DNA of 64,000 nucleotides. It comes from Litoreibacter meonggei (GTDB lineage: Bacteria; Pseudomonadota; Alphaproteobacteria; Rhodobacterales; Rhodobacteraceae). The stretch is taken from positions 1 through 64,000 of the forward strand of contig NZ_RCCE01000004.1 in the NCBI RefSeq assembly GCF_003663885.1, given 5' to 3'. Shown piece by piece: positions 32,352 through 40,105 of this stretch (position 1 is the stretch's first letter; each line of letters opens with the position of its first letter). The position numbers were made by a program, and so were the translations under genes. The notes beneath the pieces are model-generated. The model saw only the letters and a list, made by a program, of their open reading frames with translations. It ran no database searches and had not been told where the DNA came from.

Positions 32352-33668
32352 ATGACCATGGCGTCCACATCCCCTTTGTCGCAAGCCGCTGAAAGCTTTG
32401 CCGCAAGCCCTGCTGCCTCTGGCACGTCGGGCGTCACCACCCGTGACCCGCGCCTTGATTTCTATCGTGGCATTGCGATGTTCATCATCCTGTTTGCTCA
32501 CACACCCGGGAACTTCTTCACCAGCTGGATTCCCGCGCGGTGGGGCTTTTCGGACGCGACCGAGATCTTCGTGTTCTGCTCCGGCATGGCATCCGCCATT
32601 GCCTTTGGCCGAACCTTTGATCGCGCAGGGTGGCTGCTTGGCACCGCCCGCGTAGCTTACCGCGTTTGGCAGGTCTACTGGGCGCATATCTGCATGTTTT
32701 TCACCATCGCCATGATGGTCGCTTGGTGGGACAGCTTCGGCATTTTCGAGAAAAACTATATTAACTCGCTGAACCTCGTGCCGATCTTTGAAGGCCGCAC
32801 GGGCAGCACCACCGGGATCGTCACCACCACCGCCGACAATCTGATTGGCATATTCTCTTTGACCTATGTGCCGAACTATTTCGACATCCTGCCGATGTAT
32901 ATGGCGATCCTTGTTATGATGCCGGTCGTCATGGCGCTGTCCCGCGTGAATCTGTGGCTCACCGCTGCCGTCATCGCCACCGTTTGGCTGTTCGCGCAGC
33001 GAGGCTTGCTGTCTTGGCTTGGGGCCGAGCATTTGTGGTTGAGCCTGCCTGCGGAACCGTGGTCTGAACGCCACTGGTTTTTCAACCCGTTCGGCTGGCA
33101 ACTGATCTTCTTCACCGGCTTCGCCTTCATGCGTGGCTGGATTCCGGCCCCGCCGGTCAAGACATGGCTGATCGCAGTCGCGGCAGTGATTGTCGTGGCA
33201 AACATCCCCCTGTCCAATATCGGCGTGCGCGCGGTCAACCAGGAATGGTTCGGCGCGTTCGACGGCAATCCCGTGATCGAATGGCGGGTCGCCAACAAGC
33301 CGTTCATCGACAAGTCCGGCTTTGGCCTGCTGCGCTATGTGCATTTTCTGGCATTGGCCTATCTGGCATGGGTCGCGGCTGGCGTGGGCGGGCATCGCCT
33401 GATGTCTTCCGGCGGCTCGGCGCTGTCGGACGCGTGGGGCAAACTGGTCAAGATCGTCATGAAAGTCGGCCAGCAAAGTCTTGCCGTGTTTGTTTTTTCC
33501 ATGGTCTTCGCCCGTATCGCGGGTTTCACCATGGACCAGATTGGACGTGAAACCGGCACCGTGGTCATGGTTAACTTTGTAGGCGTGGCAGCGCTGGTTG
33601 CCGTGGCGTATTTCGTGGGTTGGATCAAAGGCACCCCATGGAAGCCCGCGAAAGGGGCCGCCGCATGA
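32352..33668 (+). CDS. opgC: OpgC: glucan succinyl/acyltransferase membrane protein
   Basis: The 438-residue protein has about ten transmembrane segments and belongs to the OpgC group of acyltransferase-3-like proteins. Signature segments are RDPRLDFYRGIAMFIILFAHTPG (residues 31-53), FSDATEIFVFCSGMASAIAFG and WAHICMFF. It adds succinyl or other acyl groups to osmoregulated periplasmic glucans. It is first in an opgC-opgG-opgH operon, with an ATGA overlap to opgG. Two closely spaced starts (32352, 32358) are possible. Confidence 0.92.
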   Translation: MTMASTSPLSQAAESFAASPAASGTSGVTTRDPRLDFYRGIAMFIILFAHTPGNFFTSWIPARWGFSDATEIFVFCSGMASAIAFGRTFDRAGWLLGTARVAYRVWQVYWAHICMFFTIAMMVAWWDSFGIFEKNYINSLNLVPIFEGRTGSTTGIVTTTADNLIGIFSLTYVPNYFDILPMYMAILVMMPVVMALSRVNLWLTAAVIATVWLFAQRGLLSWLGAEHLWLSLPAEPWSERHWFFNPFGWQLIFFTGFAFMRGWIPAPPVKTWLIAVAAVIVVANIPLSNIGVRAVNQEWFGAFDGNPVIEWRVANKPFIDKSGFGLLRYVHFLALAYLAWVAAGVGGHRLMSSGGSALSDAWGKLVKIVMKVGQQSLAVFVFSMVFARIAGFTMDQIGRETGTVVMVNFVGVAALVAVAYFVGWIKGTPWKPAKGAAA

Positions 33669-35224
33669 GCCTGTCTCGTCGCTCTTTCCTGACCATGTTG
33701 GGGGCCGCCGCGTTGGCGTCGCCATCCACGGCTTTGCCGATGTTCAAAGGCGAGGCGGTGCCGTTCTCGCCCGACTGGCTGAAGGCCGAAGCGCAGCGCC
33801 TTGCGGGCGAAGACTACGCCCCTATGCCAGAGGTGCCGGAGACGTGGAAAAACCTGACCTATGATCAATACAAGGCGTTGGTCTTCAACACCAAGAAGGC
33901 GCTTTGGTCCGACACCGACCGCGCCTTCCAGATGGATTTCTTCCATCCCGGCCTTTACTTTCCGCGCCCGATCGAAATCAACATCGTCGAGGGTGCCACC
34001 GCCCGTAAACTGGGCTTCGATCTGTCGCTGTTCAAACGCTACGACCCATTTCCGCAAGAGTTGGTGGATGCGGCGAAAGCCGAAGACCCGATGGACAGCA
34101 CGCTGGGCTATTCCGGCCTGCGCCTGCGCCACGAGTTAACCAAACCGGGCCGCTTCGAAGAATTCATGGTGTTCCAAGGTGCCAGCTACTTCCGCGCCAT
34201 CGGCACTGGCCAGACTTATGGCCTGTCCGCACGCGGTCTGGCGCTGAACACCGGCGAGGCGGAGGGCGAGGAGTTCCCTGAATTCACCCGTTTCTGGGTC
34301 GAGGCCCCGTCAAATGACGCCACCACAATCACCGTCCACGCCTTGCTCGACGGCCCGTCCACGACAGGCGCCTACAGCTTCCGTATCACCCCCGGCCACC
34401 CCGCGCATGTGACGGTGGAAGCCACGCTCTACCCGCGCACGGAACTGACCCATGTGGGGCTTGCCCCGCTTACTTCGATGTTCCTGTTCGACCAGACCAA
34501 CCGCGCCCGCTTCGACGACTTCCGCGAGGCGGTCCATGACAGCGAGGGCCTGCTGGTCTGGAACGGCGCGGGCGAGATGTTGTGGCGGCCCTTGGCCAAC
34601 CCGTCCAGCTTGCAGGTCTCCAGTTTCGTGGATACCAAACCGCGCGGCTTCGGGCTGATGCAACGCGCCCGCCACTCCGAGGACTACGCCGATCTGGAGG
34701 CGCTTTACCACAACCGACCCTCGCTCTGGATCACGCCGCGCGGCGATTGGGGGCAGGGGGCCGTGACCTTGGTAGAGATCCCGTCCGACAAGGAAATCTA
34801 CGATAACATCGTCGCCTATTGGCGGCCCCGTGACCCGATGGCCGCAGGGCAAGGCTACAGCTTCGCCTACGACATGGCATGGGGCGGCGAGCCGACCGAC
34901 ACGCGGCCAGTGTCGCGCGTTTTGAACAGCCGTATCGGCAAGGGTTATGACAAGGAAAAGCCCTATATCATCATGGCCGTCGACTTCGCGGATCACGAGG
35001 CATTCGGCACCAAAGAGGCGGATCTTGAAGACATAACGCGGTTCATCAGCGCCAATCGCGGCACCGTCAGCGACGGCATTTTGCAGCGTAACGATGGAAC
35101 CGGAGGCGTGCGTCTCGCGTTCAAGTTTGAGCCGGGCGACGTGGCGTCGGCGGAACTCAGGGTGCAGCTGGTGAAAGACGGAAAATCATTGACCGAAGTG
35201 TGGCTCTACAGGTGGACGGCATGA
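33665..35224 (+). CDS. opgG: Periplasmic glucan biosynthesis protein OpgG/MdoG
   Basis: The 519-residue protein has a twin-arginine signal (SRRSFLTMLGAAALA), as in OpgD-type paralogues, rather than a plain Sec signal. The mature part shows MdoG motifs LTYDQYKALVFNTKKALW, MDFFHPGLYFPRPIEINIVEG, FRAIGTGQTYGLSARGLALNTG and DFADHEAFGTKEADLEDITR. Members of this family trim or branch the linear beta-glucan backbone in the periplasm. Translationally coupled to opgC and opgH. Confidence 0.93.
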   Translation: MSLSRRSFLTMLGAAALASPSTALPMFKGEAVPFSPDWLKAEAQRLAGEDYAPMPEVPETWKNLTYDQYKALVFNTKKALWSDTDRAFQMDFFHPGLYFPRPIEINIVEGATARKLGFDLSLFKRYDPFPQELVDAAKAEDPMDSTLGYSGLRLRHELTKPGRFEEFMVFQGASYFRAIGTGQTYGLSARGLALNTGEAEGEEFPEFTRFWVEAPSNDATTITVHALLDGPSTTGAYSFRITPGHPAHVTVEATLYPRTELTHVGLAPLTSMFLFDQTNRARFDDFREAVHDSEGLLVWNGAGEMLWRPLANPSSLQVSSFVDTKPRGFGLMQRARHSEDYADLEALYHNRPSLWITPRGDWGQGAVTLVEIPSDKEIYDNIVAYWRPRDPMAAGQGYSFAYDMAWGGEPTDTRPVSRVLNSRIGKGYDKEKPYIIMAVDFADHEAFGTKEADLEDITRFISANRGTVSDGILQRNDGTGGVRLAFKFEPGDVASAELRVQLVKDGKSLTEVWLYRWTA

Positions 35225-37110
35225 CTGCGCACGGCCCGATAGCACGCGCGCCGATGATGCCGCCGGAACAGCCTTTGGCGTTTCCGGTGCAAGACCTGTC
35301 CTCGGATTATCGCGACGGGGCGGCACCCGACTTGCCCAACGATCCGTCCACGCGGCTCTGGCGGCTGGCGACGTTTCTGCCCGCGATCATCACCACAGGC
35401 GGGTTGATCGCCGCCTTCACCGACTGGTTCGCCATGGGCGGGTTGTCGGTGTTCGAAGGTCTGCTGATCGCCTTGATTGCATGCACGTTTTTCTGGATTT
35501 CCCTGTCGGTTTCGACGGTCACTGTCGGGCTGGTCAACATGATGCGCCCCCGTCGCGCGGCGCAGGACAAGCCCGCGCCCGCGCAGAATGTGGCGCTGTT
35601 GGTGCCGGTCTATAACGAGGTCCCGTGGGATGTGTTCGGCAACGCCTGCGCGATGCTTGAAGAACTGGACCGCACGCAGCATCCGCACAGCTACACGCTA
35701 TTCATCCTGTCTGACACCCGCGACGAGGTCATTGCCGAGCAGGAGCTGCGCGCCTTCGCCATGTTGCGCGCCAACCTGCCGGACCACATCGCGCTGCACT
35801 ACCGCCGCCGCGTCGACAATATCGACCGTAAGGTCGGCAATCTGGCCGATTGGGTGCAGCGGTGGGGCGGTGGCTATGACGCCATGCTGGTGCTGGACGC
35901 CGACAGTCTGATGTCCGGTCAGGCGATCATCACCCTGACCGACGAAATGGCCCACGACCCCTCCGCCGGCCTAATCCAGAGCTTCCCGCAGCTGTTCGGC
36001 GCGGAAACCCTGTTCGGGCGGGTTCAGCAGTTCTCCAGCACCATTTATGGTGCCGCTTTGGCCGAAGGTCTCGCCCGCTGGGCGGATCACGAGGGCAATT
36101 ACTGGGGCCACAACGCTATCATCCGCACCGCCGCCTTTGCCTCCTGTGCGGGTCTGCCACGGCTGGACACGTTCCGCTCCAAGGGCGCGTTGATCCTCAG
36201 CCACGACTTTGTCGAGGCGGGGTTGCTCCGCCGTGCAGGCTGGGGCGTCCGCTTCATGCCGCAGGTCAAAGGCAGCTATGAAGAAGTGCCCGCGACGCTC
36301 ATCGACTACGTGCTGCGCGACCGCCGCTGGTGTCAGGGCAACCTACAACACCTCAACATCCTCGGCTCCAAAGGTTTCCACCCCGTCACCCGCTTCCACC
36401 TGTTCCACGGCGCGATGGGCTATCTGCTATCCCCCGCATGGTTCGCGCTGCTGACCGTCTGGGCGCTGATCGGCAAGGGCGAGGAGGCGAATGTCATCCG
36501 CTACTTCACCGGCGAGAACCCGCAGGTGGCATGGCCCGAAATGAGCCATGTCAGCAACCTTGCCATTCTGGTGTTCATGTATGGCATGCTGCTTGCGCCG
36601 AAGTTCCTTGGGGCTGCCGCGCTGCTGCGCTCCGGCCCGTCGCTGCGCGATCTGGGTGGGGCAGGGCAGTTCGTGCTGTCCTTCGTGACCGAGATCATCG
36701 TCTCGGTGCTCTACGCGCCCATATTGATGGTGCAACAAACCATTGCCGTCGCCCGCACATGGATCGGTTACCGTGAAACATGGACCCCGCAAACCCGCCA
36801 AGGCGGGCGCTACGGCTTTACTACCGTCCTGAAATTCCACGCGCTGGAAATGATTGCGGGGGTTTTGCTGGTGGCAGGGATGGCCGAGGGGATCATCACG
36901 CTGTGGCTGCTGCCCATCGCGGTGTCTCTGGCCCTTGCGGTGCCCTTGTCGATGCTGAGCGGTGCGAAGCTGACGCGCTTCAAATGGACCTCCCGCCAGC
37001 TTGGCACCGCGGAGGTGTTCAACGCCCCTGCGATCATCCAAAGCGCCAAGCGGGAACGTTCCCGCATTCGGGTGGTTTTGGAGAATGCTGACCAGGTCGC
37101 AGCCGAATAG
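35221..37110 (+). CDS. opgH: Glucan glucosyltransferase OpgH/MdoH
   Basis: The 629-residue inner-membrane GT2 glycosyltransferase polymerises the glucan backbone from UDP-glucose. It has two N-terminal spans, a cytosolic GT2 domain with LVPVYNE (about 126-132), LDADSLMSG (DxD) and a QxxRW-like DRRWCQGNLQH, then several C-terminal spans. It is much shorter than the roughly 850-residue enterobacterial OpgH, as in Rhodobacter relatives. The start at 35221 overlaps the opgG stop (ATGA); a start at 35200 is possible but lies inside opgG. It ends directly against a convergent esterase gene. Confidence 0.94.
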   Translation: MTAHGPIARAPMMPPEQPLAFPVQDLSSDYRDGAAPDLPNDPSTRLWRLATFLPAIITTGGLIAAFTDWFAMGGLSVFEGLLIALIACTFFWISLSVSTVTVGLVNMMRPRRAAQDKPAPAQNVALLVPVYNEVPWDVFGNACAMLEELDRTQHPHSYTLFILSDTRDEVIAEQELRAFAMLRANLPDHIALHYRRRVDNIDRKVGNLADWVQRWGGGYDAMLVLDADSLMSGQAIITLTDEMAHDPSAGLIQSFPQLFGAETLFGRVQQFSSTIYGAALAEGLARWADHEGNYWGHNAIIRTAAFASCAGLPRLDTFRSKGALILSHDFVEAGLLRRAGWGVRFMPQVKGSYEEVPATLIDYVLRDRRWCQGNLQHLNILGSKGFHPVTRFHLFHGAMGYLLSPAWFALLTVWALIGKGEEANVIRYFTGENPQVAWPEMSHVSNLAILVFMYGMLLAPKFLGAAALLRSGPSLRDLGGAGQFVLSFVTEIIVSVLYAPILMVQQTIAVARTWIGYRETWTPQTRQGGRYGFTTVLKFHALEMIAGVLLVAGMAEGIITLWLLPIAVSLALAVPLSMLSGAKLTRFKWTSRQLGTAEVFNAPAIIQSAKRERSRIRVVLENADQVAAE

Positions 37111-37917
37111 CTACTCCAGCGCCTCGAACCAGTCCAACGCCATGACGGCCCAGCCCTTGGGGATGCCATGCGCGCCTTGGTGCAACGCAAAGTCCAGCGC
37201 GCCTGCGTCGCAAGTATCCCAACTGCGCCGCCAGAAATCGCCCGAGGTGTCGAACGTATCGGCGCGCATGTTTTTGCAGCCGTTGGTTTCGCGCCAGATT
37301 TGCATCGCTTGGAACACATCGCCTTGATAGATGCGCCCGCCGCCCAAAGGACGGCCTTCCAGCGGCACGGTGGTGTCGCGCCAGCCATGGGTGTGGAGCA
37401 GCTTCACGGGCCCCTTGCACGCATCCATCGCCGGATGGGGCCGCCAGAAACTGCCCGCCACAGGGGCGTAGGCGCGGGCCAGATCAGGCGCGTCGCAGGC
37501 CAGATAGGAGGTCATGGACCCGCCAATGGAAAACCCCGCCAGCAAGATACGGTCTCGATCCACCCCATGATTGGCGACGGCGTCGTCAATGACGGCACGG
37601 ATAAAAGCCAGCTCGTTGCGTTGTTGCACCCGGTCGGGATGAAAGGACCAGCCGGAGCCGAAACGCGAGTTCGGGCGTTTCAACCCGTTCGGGCCGATCA
37701 CCGCATAACCACGCTTCAGGATCGGGCCACCCATGCGCAGGATGCCGGTGCCTTTGCCACCTGCGCCGTGCAGGAACACTACGGCAGGGACCGAACCATC
37801 CGCAGCATCAGGTGCCTCGATATGATAACTGCCAAGCGGCAGCTCGCAGGGCTGTTCCGCGTCGCCACAGGCAAGGGCGGGGGTGGCCAGAAGGGCCAAT
37901 GCAGCGAGCCATTTCAT
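37111..37917 (-). CDS. Secreted alpha/beta-hydrolase esterase (PHB depolymerase/LpqC-like)
   Basis: The 268-residue product has a signal peptide (MKWLAALALLATPALACG) and the polyhydroxybutyrate depolymerase/feruloyl-esterase-like fold: VVFLHGAGGKGTG (oxyanion region), LAGFSIGGSMTSYLAC (Ser nucleophile in GFSIGG), LHTHGWRDTTVP (Asp) and FALHQGAHGIP (His). Several paired cysteines fit an exported, disulfide-bonded protein. The start at 37917 overlaps the upstream rhodanese gene (ATGA). It is last in the operon of five exported proteins from 39974 to 37111. Substrate unknown. Confidence 0.85.
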   Translation of the reverse strand: MKWLAALALLATPALACGDAEQPCELPLGSYHIEAPDAADGSVPAVVFLHGAGGKGTGILRMGGPILKRGYAVIGPNGLKRPNSRFGSGWSFHPDRVQQRNELAFIRAVIDDAVANHGVDRDRILLAGFSIGGSMTSYLACDAPDLARAYAPVAGSFWRPHPAMDACKGPVKLLHTHGWRDTTVPLEGRPLGGGRIYQGDVFQAMQIWRETNGCKNMRADTFDTSGDFWRRSWDTCDAGALDFALHQGAHGIPKGWAVMALDWFEALE

Positions 37918-38378
37918 CGGATCACCGGAAGCCCGCGCTTCAGCCAACCTGGACCGGCCCGCGATCCTTGCATGCCTTCCGGCACGTCGATGATGTTGCT
38001 GAACCCTGCCGCCGCCAACCGGTTGCTGAGACGCGCCGAGCGCACCCCGCGCGCGCAGATCAGGGCGACGGGCAGGGCAGTCTCTCCGCCCGTCAATGTT
38101 AACAATGCGTCCACGAAATCCTCACGCCGCATGTCGAGCCGGTTGGCACCTTCGCCGGAGCCAGTGCGCGCCCATTCATCGGGGCGGCGAATGTCGACCA
38201 ACAGGATGTCGCCCGCCACGGCTTGCGCATGTGCGGTGGGCGGGTCGATATGCGCGGCCTCCGACGCCTCGGTGATTGCGGAATAAAACAGGTTGCGCCC
38301 GCCAGCGGCGTAAATAGCACCACCCGCCAGAACGATTGCTCCGCCGGTCAGCAGCGCACGCCTCGACAGATCGGCCAT
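37914..38378 (-). CDS. Exported or membrane-anchored single-domain rhodanese
   Basis: The 154-residue product has an N-terminal hydrophobic segment after SRRALLTGGAIVLAGGAIYAAG, which resembles a twin-arginine or membrane-anchor signal. The rhodanese domain follows, with LLVDIRRPDEWARTG and the active-site loop CARGVRSA (Cys108), the usual loop length for sulfurtransferases. It lies between an SCO-like gene (TGATG junction) and an esterase gene (ATGA). A role in moving sulfane sulfur or resolving persulfides in the periplasm is plausible. Confidence 0.88.
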   Translation of the reverse strand: MADLSRRALLTGGAIVLAGGAIYAAGGRNLFYSAITEASEAAHIDPPTAHAQAVAGDILLVDIRRPDEWARTGSGEGANRLDMRREDFVDALLTLTGGETALPVALICARGVRSARLSNRLAAAGFSNIIDVPEGMQGSRAGPGWLKRGLPVIR

Positions 38379-38938
38379 CAGCTTTGGCCTTGGGTGTATT
38401 TCGCAACGATCCCTGCCGCCGCCTCCGGTGTGATGACAGGGGGGACGAGGGTCAGTAACTTGCCCTGCGCGTCGAGCAGATAGAGGAAGCTGCCATGGGC
38501 ATAGACGGGGCCATATTCGGGGTCGGTGAAGACCTCCTCGGTCTCGATCTGGTAGGCGTCATAGGCAACTTGCAATTGTGCCGCCGTGCCGGTCAGGCCG
38601 ATGAAGTCTTCATGGTGCTGCGCCAGCGCGGGGCCGAGATTATCGACCGTGTCACGCGCCGGATCGACGGTGATCATGACAGGCGTCACCGTGATCCCCT
38701 GTTCGGCCACCGCATCCGCCACCTGCGCCATCATTGGCAGCGCGGCAGAGCAGATTTCGCGGCAATTGGCATAGCCGAAGAATAGCAATTGCGGATGTCC
38801 CTGCGGGTCAGCCTGCGTGCGTGCGGTCCCTGTCTGGTCAACCAGCTCGAACGCCCCGCCCAGATCGAAGGGCAGAGGGGATTGGTCCGCCAGCGCCGGA
38901 GAACACAGCGCCAGCAGGGCAAGGACAGGCTTGATCAC
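38378..38938 (-). CDS. SCO1/SenC-like copper/thiol protein, GTG start
   Basis: The 186-residue thioredoxin-fold protein has a signal peptide (IKPVLALLALCSPALA). The SCO copper motif is present: C59-x3-C63 in GYANCREICSAALPMM, and His149 in VYAHGSFLYLLD. TPVMITVDPARDTVDNL is also typical. The best start is GTG at 38938, with GGAG upstream and a GTGA overlap with the preceding gene. SCO proteins insert copper into cytochrome oxidase or act as thiol reductants. No oxidase genes are nearby, so its client may be one of the two Cys-rich neighbours. Confidence 0.9.
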   Translation of the reverse strand: MIKPVLALLALCSPALADQSPLPFDLGGAFELVDQTGTARTQADPQGHPQLLFFGYANCREICSAALPMMAQVADAVAEQGITVTPVMITVDPARDTVDNLGPALAQHHEDFIGLTGTAAQLQVAYDAYQIETEEVFTDPEYGPVYAHGSFLYLLDAQGKLLTLVPPVITPEAAAGIVAKYTQGQS

Positions 38939-39504
38939 TCGAAAAGCTCCTTGATCAATTCCGCGTCTTTCTCGAGGCCCAGCCCGAAATGTCCGGTCTC
39001 GGCCAGATGCGCATTGACGCGCGGGTCGCGGCGGAACCACGGGCCTTTGCCTTTGGCCTCGGGGTATTTGGCGGCCCAGGCCTTGCTCCAGGTGTTGGCC
39101 TTGACCCAGTCTTCCGAGCCGACCTCGCGGACTTTTTGCACGAGATAGATATTCGTGGCTCCTTGGATGTCTTCGTCTTCGATCAGCAACCCGTCAACGT
39201 CGACCTGCTTGCCGCAAAACGGCAGAAGATCGACGGTGGCCCCCTGAAAGCCGCTTTGCGCGTTCTTGTTGGGGAAAACCAGCACATCATCCGCGGCGCG
39301 CAGAAGACCCAGCTGGCGGTCGCCGTCGCCGCAATTGTCGGGGCAATCTCCGGTGACCTCACAGGTGATGTCGACGACCTTGGCCTCGAAGAGCGCAGGG
39401 GCTTCTGCATAGAGGTTCCAGCTTTTCGCGCTGGACCCTTCAGAGAAGTCGGCGGCATAGACGGGGCTGGCGGCGATCAGGGCCAAGGCGATGATACGTG
39501 TCAT
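38935..39504 (-). CDS. Exported Cys-rich protein with C-x3-C, related to the gene at 39516
   Basis: The 189-residue product has a signal peptide (MTRIIALALIAASPVYA). Cys48, Cys54-x3-Cys58 (CPDNC) and Cys97 are visible. The core EAKVVDITCEVTGD...RQLGLLRAADDVLVFPNK, then VDVDGLLIED and NIYLVQKV, follows the same pattern as the next gene upstream (EIIDTWCYFSG...IPVGLLGEDGEVYMVLK), so I infer a shared small beta-barrel-like domain. A C-terminal extension (about 135-189) is specific to this protein. The start at 39504 has GAGGG; a start at 39519 would overlap the upstream stop. No known family recognised. Confidence 0.75.
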   Translation of the reverse strand: MTRIIALALIAASPVYAADFSEGSSAKSWNLYAEAPALFEAKVVDITCEVTGDCPDNCGDGDRQLGLLRAADDVLVFPNKNAQSGFQGATVDLLPFCGKQVDVDGLLIEDEDIQGATNIYLVQKVREVGSEDWVKANTWSKAWAAKYPEAKGKGPWFRRDPRVNAHLAETGHFGLGLEKDAELIKELFE

Positions 39505-39515
39505 GGATGCGGCCC

Positions 39516-39974
39516 TCATTTCTTTGGCTCCGGAATGGCGAAGCCCGGCACGACGCCGTAATCCTCGTGGTTCAGGTTGGTGATGCCGTGATCGGTCACG
39601 ACTTTTTCGACCACCAGATAATTCAGCCCGTCGCGCTTGTAGAGCATGCCGTCAGCGGTGATTTCGTGGCTGGCGAGGTTCAGGTTGGTGTCACCTGAGG
39701 CGTTCTGGTCGTCGCCCTCGATTTTCAGAACCATATAGACCTCGCCGTCTTCGCCCAACAGGCCAACGGGGATGCCCCCTGCGGAGCACCACAGCGCGCA
39801 GGTATGATGGGCCGAGCCGACAACCGCATCAGGCCCGCCCATGACACCGGAGAAATAGCACCATGTGTCGATGATCTCGCCGGTGATCTGGATGCGTTCG
39901 CCCTCGGACGCGCTGGCGGGCGCGGCAAGGCCCAAGGCGAGCATGGATGCCGCAAAGATGGGGGTGAGTTTCAT
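39516..39974 (-). CDS. Exported Cys/His-rich protein with C-x3-C
   Basis: The 152-residue product has a signal peptide (MKLTPIFAASMLALGLAAPASA) and a compact beta-rich domain. Candidate metal or thiol residues are Cys39 in IIDTWCYFSG and His56, His57, Cys59 and Cys63 in SAHHTCALWCSAGGIPVGLL. GGAGGAC upstream of the ATG gives a clear start. First gene of the operon. The HxxC-x3-C arrangement just before a Gly-x-P-V-G-L-L strand resembles metal or heme-associated small periplasmic proteins, but I cannot name a family. Confidence 0.75.
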   Translation of the reverse strand: MKLTPIFAASMLALGLAAPASASEGERIQITGEIIDTWCYFSGVMGGPDAVVGSAHHTCALWCSAGGIPVGLLGEDGEVYMVLKIEGDDQNASGDTNLNLASHEITADGMLYKRDGLNYLVVEKVVTDHGITNLNHEDYGVVPGFAIPEPKK

Positions 39975-40105
39975 TCGTGTCGTCCTCCGCTGATTCTTGG
40001 CATTAACGTAGCAAGAATGAGCGGTGATAGGGGATCACGTCTTGGTTAGGCCTCACGCGCGAAGCGGTGTCGGGTTATTTAGGTATTTTTGAAGCAGTGA
40101 TGAGG

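Follow-up and report, generated by a model that had tools for sequence, protein, structure and literature searches.

A conserved three-gene module of two exported cysteine-rich proteins and an SCO1/SenC-family protein in Alphaproteobacteria

The best-known role of SCO proteins is to assist cytochrome oxidase (PMC9145763). In roseobacters an SCO outside the oxidase clusters has been described in the mtoX-SCO1/senC-mauG cluster of methanethiol oxidase, where it accompanies a copper enzyme (PMC5739008). Among small periplasmic proteins, CusF and SilF are OB-fold Cu(I) chaperones (PMC10656224), and CutF is a small exported CXXXC protein that is needed for a cuproenzyme and has been proposed as a Cu(I) donor (PMC8456105). 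Ferric reductase domain proteins with a Rieske domain have been classified as module M4 (PMC3591440). Here we describe a locus in which an SCO1/SenC-family gene stands with two other genes for small exported cysteine-rich proteins.

The operon and its conserved core

The window, by which we mean the whole stretch of 64,000 nucleotides of Litoreibacter meonggei DNA that was analyzed, holds five minus-strand genes with overlapping ends at 37111-39974, as a first-pass annotation had described. The features are as follows:

39516..39974, minus strand: P1, 152-aa exported protein, predicted OB-like barrel
38935..39519, minus strand: P2, 194-aa exported protein, predicted OB-like barrel with a helical C-terminal tail; overlaps P1 by 4 nt
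38378..38938, minus strand: SCO, 186-aa SCO1/SenC-family protein; overlaps P2 by 4 nt
37914..38378, minus strand: RHO, 154-aa rhodanese with a twin-arginine-type N-terminus; overlaps SCO by 1 nt
37111..37917, minus strand: EST, 268-aa alpha/beta hydrolase, PHB-depolymerase/esterase-like; overlaps RHO by 4 nt
40031..40050, minus strand: upstream box CCTAACCAAGACGTGATCCC; a similar box lies 5' of P1 in many genomes

The C-x3-C motif noticed in three consecutive products is present in P1, P2 and SCO, and the residue numbers first given for P1 (C39, C59 and C63) and for the rhodanese (C108) are correct. The three P2 cysteines listed as Cys48, Cys54 and Cys58 are real but had been counted from an inner Met6; the ATG at 39519 makes them C53, C59 and C63, and a fourth cysteine, C102, was absent from the list. 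Likewise, C59 and C63 of SCO stand, while its His149 becomes H148 with the GTG start at 38938 (186 aa), which is most likely the start, rather than the ORF-table start at 39040. No cytochrome oxidase genes lie nearby, as had been stated. The genome has three COX1-family matches, which lie on contigs C1, C2 and C6; the window's contig, C4, has none, so the linked oxidase of a cytochrome-oxidase assembly cluster is missing.

P2 was found beside P1 in all 80 loci and SCO downstream of the pair in 77; of the other three loci, L078 and L094 stop at a contig end, and only L109 truly lacks the gene. The SCO start lies at most 125 nt from P2 in 76 of these 77 loci, the remaining one being 587 nt away under the start chosen. 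P1 and P2 occur in the same 23 of 198 genomes of the window's family and in the same 10 of 289 genomes of the class. Thirteen further loci from Alphaproteobacteria, two of them in the window's own family, have SCO after P1-P2 in 10 cases. Because P1-P2 is without an adjacent SCO in the other three of these outer loci and in L109, SCO is not indispensable. P1-P2-SCO is a conserved unit, a self-contained three-gene module of Alphaproteobacteria. It had no match in a plasmid collection, and a literature search, confined to papers outside subscription, found no title on the unit. The module is present in strain SZCCDBG043 (L112) of Ruegeria pomeroyi, an established laboratory species, which makes its role directly testable.

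RHO and EST are an Opg-linked pair outside the P1-P2-SCO system, being present in 27 and 26 of the 80 P1 loci, respectively. RHO matches PF00581 at 27.5 bits (cut-off 22.2) and has a C-x2-G-x-R loop (CARGVR) of which C108, G111 and R113 are invariant in 13 rows, as is the twin-arginine pair R6 and R7. Of the 49 family genomes among 198 that carry RHO (E <= 2e-20), 36 are without P1, and the best 30 RHO loci (about 3.4 kb each) contain EST in 25 cases, OpgH or OpgC in 23 and P1-P2-SCO in 5. In the 13 P1-positive genomes with RHO, the gene is adjacent in 5 and elsewhere in up to 8, counting G166, where the contig ends. The first-pass annotation had proposed a five-gene copper, thiol and sulfur system that includes the rhodanese. 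All five genes do overlap end to end in the window, and Litoreibacter-type loci carry P1, P2, SCO, RHO and EST with few exceptions (L057 has no EST). However, the linkage of RHO to EST and Opg genes rather than to P1-P2-SCO contradicts a part for the rhodanese and esterase, and we reject the five-gene system as very improbable. Co-location across genomes thus fails for RHO and EST but holds for P1, P2 and SCO.

Upstream of P1, an RpoE-type promoter was considered and rejected. One R. sphaeroides RpoE site reads TGATCC(N15)GCGTA (PMC5036791), and in the window the GCGTA part is absent at that spacing. Crude regulator patterns were counted in 80 upstream regions and in shuffled sequences. FNR, CopR-, Irr- and RegA-like patterns gave no hits in either set, a CueR-like pattern gave 5 upstream versus 17 in shuffles and a RirA-like pattern gave 7 versus 2; no copper-regulator-like box was found upstream with these patterns.

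Conserved residues, predicted folds and the SCO lineage

The P1 residues C39, H56, H57, C59 and C63 are the same in all 81 aligned rows, D36 is invariant too, and the motif reads GE-x2-D-x2-C ... G-x-A-H-x2-C-A-x2-C. P2 keeps C53, C59, C63 and C102 in 80 of 81 rows, the exception (L088) being a wrong frame picked, and its C-terminal tail carries WF-[RE]-x-D. The P1 and P2 cysteines are therefore conserved and not variable, and those of P1, P2 and SCO are not a matter of chance. Since P1 is a secreted protein with three invariant cysteines and an invariant histidine, these residues would be expected to serve a function beyond that of plain disulfides, as parts of an active or binding site. One P1 copy, L141, has an in-frame TGA and was considered as a selenoprotein; the codon sits at the position of Trp38 and not at a cysteine and is attributed to a mutation or an error of assembly, and the copy was excluded from alignments A1 and A3.

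On sequence searches, no known family appears to fit either protein. P1 had no convincing Pfam, NCBIfam or PDB match; up to E = 1 its sole Pfam match was DUF2574 (E 0.073), and the NCBIfam model TsoY_fam (E 0.0018, 17.2 bits against a cut-off of 150) was set aside. Also set aside for the P1 family were DUF4431, matched by one of the 16 members of A3 (E 0.0057), and fimbrial models, matched by three of the 16 (best E 0.014). P2 had no Pfam or NCBIfam match up to E = 1. Its ubiquitin hits in the PDB (best whole-sequence E 7.2e-06) consist of repeats of one weak stretch, none of which passes singly among the top rows, and were rejected.

Profiles and models make it probable that P1 and P2 are paralogues, though distant ones. 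Profile comparison by hhalign gave 86.8% and, in a second comparison, 90.9% with the cysteines in register, above the SCO controls of 0.6% and 9.9%, the latter spanning 17 signal-peptide columns. The models have an identical OB-like order of predicted elements, with moderate confidence for P1 (pLDDT 73), and the pattern first noticed as shared by both proteins does look like that of one family. Foldseek searches with the two models gave no match at E <= 0.001; many of the matches listed are OB proteins, and CusF is not named among those listed in either fold search. The models give good support to a placement of three cysteines on or next to short helices after strand 1 of the predicted OB-like barrel; His56 of P1 and Cys102 of P2 may each add a fourth soft ligand.

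A membrane protein encoded next to a ferric-reductase-like/Rieske fusion has the P1 domain at its C-terminus, and both forms of the domain keep GE-x2-D-x2-C ... G-x-A-H-x2-C-A-x2-C. The gene order, small membrane protein, fusion and C-terminal P1-domain protein, was the same in 8 of 8 loci examined. Membrane P1 domains were found in 12 of 23 P1-positive and 8 of 175 P1-negative genomes, an odds ratio of 22.8 that ignores genome kinship and for which 15 of the 20 matches were assigned by score alone; the same measure is 5.0 for P1-RHO and 0.9 for P1-NosZ. The membrane form had no match in 11 of the 23 P1-positive genomes, the window's own included.

SCO matches PF02630 at 138.3 bits (cut-off 22.8; scanned from the longer start) and has the CXXXCXnH residues, with C59 and C63 present in 78 of 78 rows and H148 in 77 of 78, L115 having a gap there. 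In the window the motif is C59-REI-C63-S (CREICS) and not of the CPDxCP form. Of the 33 operon rows, 5 retain CP[DE]xCP, against 22 of 22 other SCOs, and operon SCOs from beyond the window's family have CPDICP in five cases. Loss of CPDxCP in most operon SCOs could mean loss of copper binding. As a separate observation, CPDxCP is usual among the SCOs sampled here and is not obligatory for SCO1/SenC.

The SCO of the operon forms a lineage distinct from the 22 other SCOs sampled. In a tree of 55 rows, after removal of six identical rows, one branch with support 98/91 splits the 33 operon rows, which count two genes twice (L080/L246 and L087/L258), from the 22 others. A hand-picked 18 of the 77 SCOs of the 80 loci went into this tree, and the 22 others were drawn from the window's genome, ten P1-positive genomes and two P1-negative genomes. 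In an earlier 36-row tree, built from plus-strand extractions only, the operon SCO of L243 grouped with the others (support 92-93). Gene linkage and this separate lineage together tie P1 and P2 to SCO, as the first-pass annotation had supposed. By our reading of their neighbors, the genome's three other SCOs are placed differently: two have PCuAC- and DsbB-like genes close by, and one is flanked by RegA- and RegB-like genes. The fourth, in the operon, therefore probably has another job.

Possible functions and comparison with described systems

We favor, with somewhat less than even confidence, a periplasmic copper(I)/thiol relay formed by P1, P2 and SCO, with soft-metal sites in P1 and P2 and with RHO and EST excluded. 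The Cys/His sets would be soft-metal sites, most likely for copper(I); the dedicated SCO would keep their thiols reduced, exchange copper with P1/P2, or do both; and the P1-P2 pair, which may be a heterodimer, would hand copper to a periplasmic or membrane client. NosZ was rejected as that client, being present in 6 of 23 P1-positive and 49 of 175 P1-negative genomes with no association; with COX1 not near either, neither of these cuproenzymes is linked to the module.

A rather unlikely alternative is a metal-free thiol-redox module in which a divergent, thioredoxin-like SCO reduces or oxidizes the C-x3-C pairs of P1 and P2, which would be redox carriers or sensors. C-x3-C is common to all three products, CP[DE]xCP is missing in 28 of 33 operon rows, and thiol-disulphide activity is cited for two SCO homologues, PrrC and B. 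subtilis Sco; the same source reports no such activity for S. lividans Sco and human Sco1 (PMC3603459). However, the distal histidine of SCO is retained in all rows but one, P1 keeps its invariant histidine beside three cysteines, and CPDICP is retained by the SCO of the five outer operons. The recurrence of one C-H-C-C motif in soluble and membrane settings, the constant membrane gene order and the co-occurrence speak instead for electron-transfer sites; P1-P2-SCO would be the soluble arm of a pathway in which the ferric-reductase-like/Rieske membrane complex also takes part, with C-H-C-C carrying copper or another cofactor. We hold this to be unlikely, as nearly half of the P1-positive genomes, including the window's, give no membrane match and the co-occurrence counts disregard common descent and depend largely on sorting by score. 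A set of four soft ligands in so small a protein also resembles a zinc site, and the number of cysteines in P2 is even, so that the C-H-C-C and C-C-C-C sets might be structural zinc sites or disulfides in binding or scaffold proteins; a tight tie to one SCO lineage would not be expected of plain zinc sites, and this reading seems decidedly improbable.

The copper(I)/thiol relay could be extended to a broader scheme, which we regard as doubtful. P1 and P2 would then found a new class of metalloproteins, periplasmic and of OB fold, whose Cys3His and Cys4 sites are loaded by an SCO evolved for them. The same domain would also end the chain of a membrane reductase not described before, after a ferric-reductase-like domain and a Rieske domain, as its OB/C-H-C-C site, joining copper delivery and electron transfer in one pathway.

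Compared with CusF and SilF, P1 and P2 are also small and exported, with a predicted OB-like barrel and proposed soft-metal ligands, a likeness of fold class only. They have no CusF family match (Pfam up to E = 1), and the CusF ligands are given as His36, Met47 and Met49 (PMC9436033), in contrast to the Cys/His sets proposed here. Like CutF of the Rhodobacter capsulatus cutFOG operon, P1 and P2 are small, exported and carry CXXXC. However, the CutF-like combination of fewer than 170 aa, signal peptide, CXXXC, PP motif and oxidase neighbor is not found: P1 (152 aa) lacks the C-terminal PP, P2 has 194 aa, no multicopper oxidase is among the three neighbors scanned, and both proteins carry further invariant Cys/His residues. 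The fusion adjoining the membrane P1-domain protein is similar to those of M4, for which the available part of the description (PMC3591440) mentions no OB/C-H-C-C partner. The operon SCO shares with SCO1/SenC proteins the domain above cut-off, C-x3-C and the distal histidine, and differs in having CREICS in place of CPDxCP, a lineage of its own and P1/P2 as partners instead of oxidase or PCuAC genes. As in mtoX-SCO1/senC-mauG, the SCO lies outside oxidase clusters, yet here it adjoins P1-P2. An SCO lineage with two unnamed invariant-cysteine partners and no oxidase points to another periplasmic copper/thiol client in marine bacteria.

The P1-P2-SCO module

Five genes with overlapping ends lie on the minus strand from P1 to EST (37111-39974), as the first-pass annotation had read them, with a short sequence box upstream of P1:

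40031-40050, minus strand: box upstream of P1
39516-39974, minus strand: P1, open reading frame for a small exported Cys-rich protein
38935-39519, minus strand: P2, open reading frame for a second such protein
38378-38938, minus strand: SCO, SCO1/SenC family, GTG start, matching PF02630
37914-38378, minus strand: RHO, rhodanese, matching PF00581
37111-37917, minus strand: EST, matching several alpha/beta-hydrolase families

Scanning GTDB contigs turned up 203 relatives of P1; the locus counts use only the best 80, so that the locus set leans to close relatives. The annotation's five-gene system holds for P1-P2-SCO, with P2 in 80/80 and SCO in 77/80 of these loci, but not for RHO and EST, which occur in 27/80 and 26/80; OpgH is found in 24/80. 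By our own gene picking, each neighbour cluster beyond P1, P2 and SCO occurs in at most 26/80. SCO is missing from three loci, two of which (L078 and L094) break off at a contig end. In the third, Palleronia rufa (L109), P1-P2 is kept and another stretch, then EST, stands in place of SCO, which was not found in the 16-kb locus. P1 and P2 are side by side in all of a further 13 loci, with SCO next in 10 and absent there from L159, L163 and L165. Within an even sample of 198 genomes of the window's family, P1 (strong matches) and P2 occur in the same 23, and among 289 class genomes in the same 10. A wide P1 profile matched 9 of 299 phylum genomes (class make-up not given), all from the window's class. 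P1-P2-SCO is a conserved module.

The box, cAAnnnGTGAT[CT], recurs upstream of P1 across loci (75 upstreams kept, each less than 60% alike), with an EM score of 184 at width 12 versus 39 in shuffles. In the unthinned set, 58 of 81 upstreams have GTGA[TCA] at 26-104 nt ahead of the P1 start, against about 17 expected by our own arithmetic with equal base use.

The RHO-EST block

At E <= 2e-20, RHO matches occur in 49 of the 198 family genomes, and 36 of these 49 lack P1. The best 30 RHO loci were taken at only about 3.4 kb each, and neighbours further off are therefore missed; EST was found in 25 (in L188 on the other strand), OpgH or OpgC in 23, and P1-P2-SCO in 5 (in L193 on the opposite strand). 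From the RHO matches without P1 and the neighbours at RHO loci, P1-P2-SCO and RHO-EST are independent blocks, brought head to tail in the window. The genes adjoining RHO-EST, at 32352-37110, we take from reading of the sequence to be OpgC-, OpgG- and OpgH-like; the last, the only one of the three scanned against families, matched a glycosyl transferase. Across 32352-37917 the Opg-like genes face the RHO-EST pair, and a Tat-type rhodanese adjoins glucan genes.

P1, P2 and a membrane form of the P1 domain

Neither P1 nor P2 had a Pfam or NCBIfam hit approaching a cut-off, nor was a convincing match obtained with PDB sequences; in the libraries covered, both families are unnamed. Alignments of 48 rows contain 43 invariant columns for P1 and 38 for P2. 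Wider alignments add other alphaproteobacterial families. Over 16 rows, P1 and its membrane form (a membrane protein with a C-terminal P1 domain) keep R27, G32, E33, D36, C39, G53, A55, H56, C59, A60, C63, P69 and G109, while at His57 L161 has Phe and the membrane form Lys. Over 12 rows P2 retains 29 invariant columns, C53, C59, C63 and C102 among them. Judged by sequence, the invariant residues of both proteins are ligand-like. In one alphaproteobacterial assembly (L141, near 1588) the reading frame of P1 contains a TGA in place of Trp38, which looks like an assembly error or a mutation.

AlphaFold2 models (mean pLDDT 73.0 for P1, 87.1 for P2) start with a long strand, a helix with the first Cys and a helix with or next to C-x3-C, followed by two short and two long strands, a predicted order that fits an OB barrel. 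The P2 model adds a helix ahead of C102, as well as a helical tail. Foldseek searches of both models against the PDB gave no match at E <= 0.001. Weak matches, among those listed, were to single-stranded-DNA-binding proteins, RPA, tRNA synthetases, YgiW and, for the P2 model only, NlpE. With hhalign the wide P1 and P2 profiles scored 90.9%, D-x2-C and C-x3-C being aligned, versus 0.6% (P1) and 9.9% (P2) in controls against SCO. Because of this difference and the same element order in the models, P1 and P2 are probably paralogues, which bears out the likeness seen at first reading.

Weak P1 matches fell in the C-terminal region of a protein that is membrane-anchored and belongs to a three-gene unit:

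L166-L173, for example L167:6572-8774: small membrane protein, ferric-reductase-like/Rieske fusion (two fusions family-scanned), OB protein with C-H-C-C domain

Gene order was the same in all 8 loci inspected. By the wide profile, the membrane form, told from P1 by score and in 5 of 20 cases also by neighbours, is carried by 20 of the 198 family genomes: 12 of 23 with P1 versus 8 of 175 without (odds ratio 22.8, Fisher p 2e-8, common descent of the genomes uncorrected). Comparable odds ratios were 5.0 for P1-RHO and 0.9 for P1-NosZ. The window's own genome gave no membrane-form match with this profile.

SCO lineage and possible function

In a tree of 55 SCO rows, a single branch (98/91) separates the 33 operon rows, encoded with P1-P2, from the 22 others; in a first, smaller tree one operon row fell differently. 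CP[DE]xCP is found in 22/22 of the others versus 5/33 operon rows, all five from outside the window's family, and the window SCO reads CREICS. By these sequence criteria the operon SCO forms a lineage of its own. The window's genome has three more SCO genes (L208, G000:C7; L209, G000:C5), two close together in a stretch with genes we read as DsbB-, PCuAC- and MerR-like, and one between genes read in this way as RegA- and RegB-like.

A putative C3H site in P1 and a putative C4 site in P2 may bind copper(I) or function as thiols, and both would be served by SCO. We tentatively favour a copper relay, at somewhat under an even chance; no client of P1-P2-SCO was found in the analysis. Thiol redox at the same cysteines is rather unlikely. 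An electron-transfer site common to P1 and the membrane complex, where the P1 domain is encoded beside the Rieske fusion, seems improbable, and a purely structural site more doubtful still. Among the titles listed by literature searches, none was on the P1-P2-SCO pairing. Both the SCO family and systems for copper delivery linked to SCO are already known; the OB-type C-H-C-C site may be novel.
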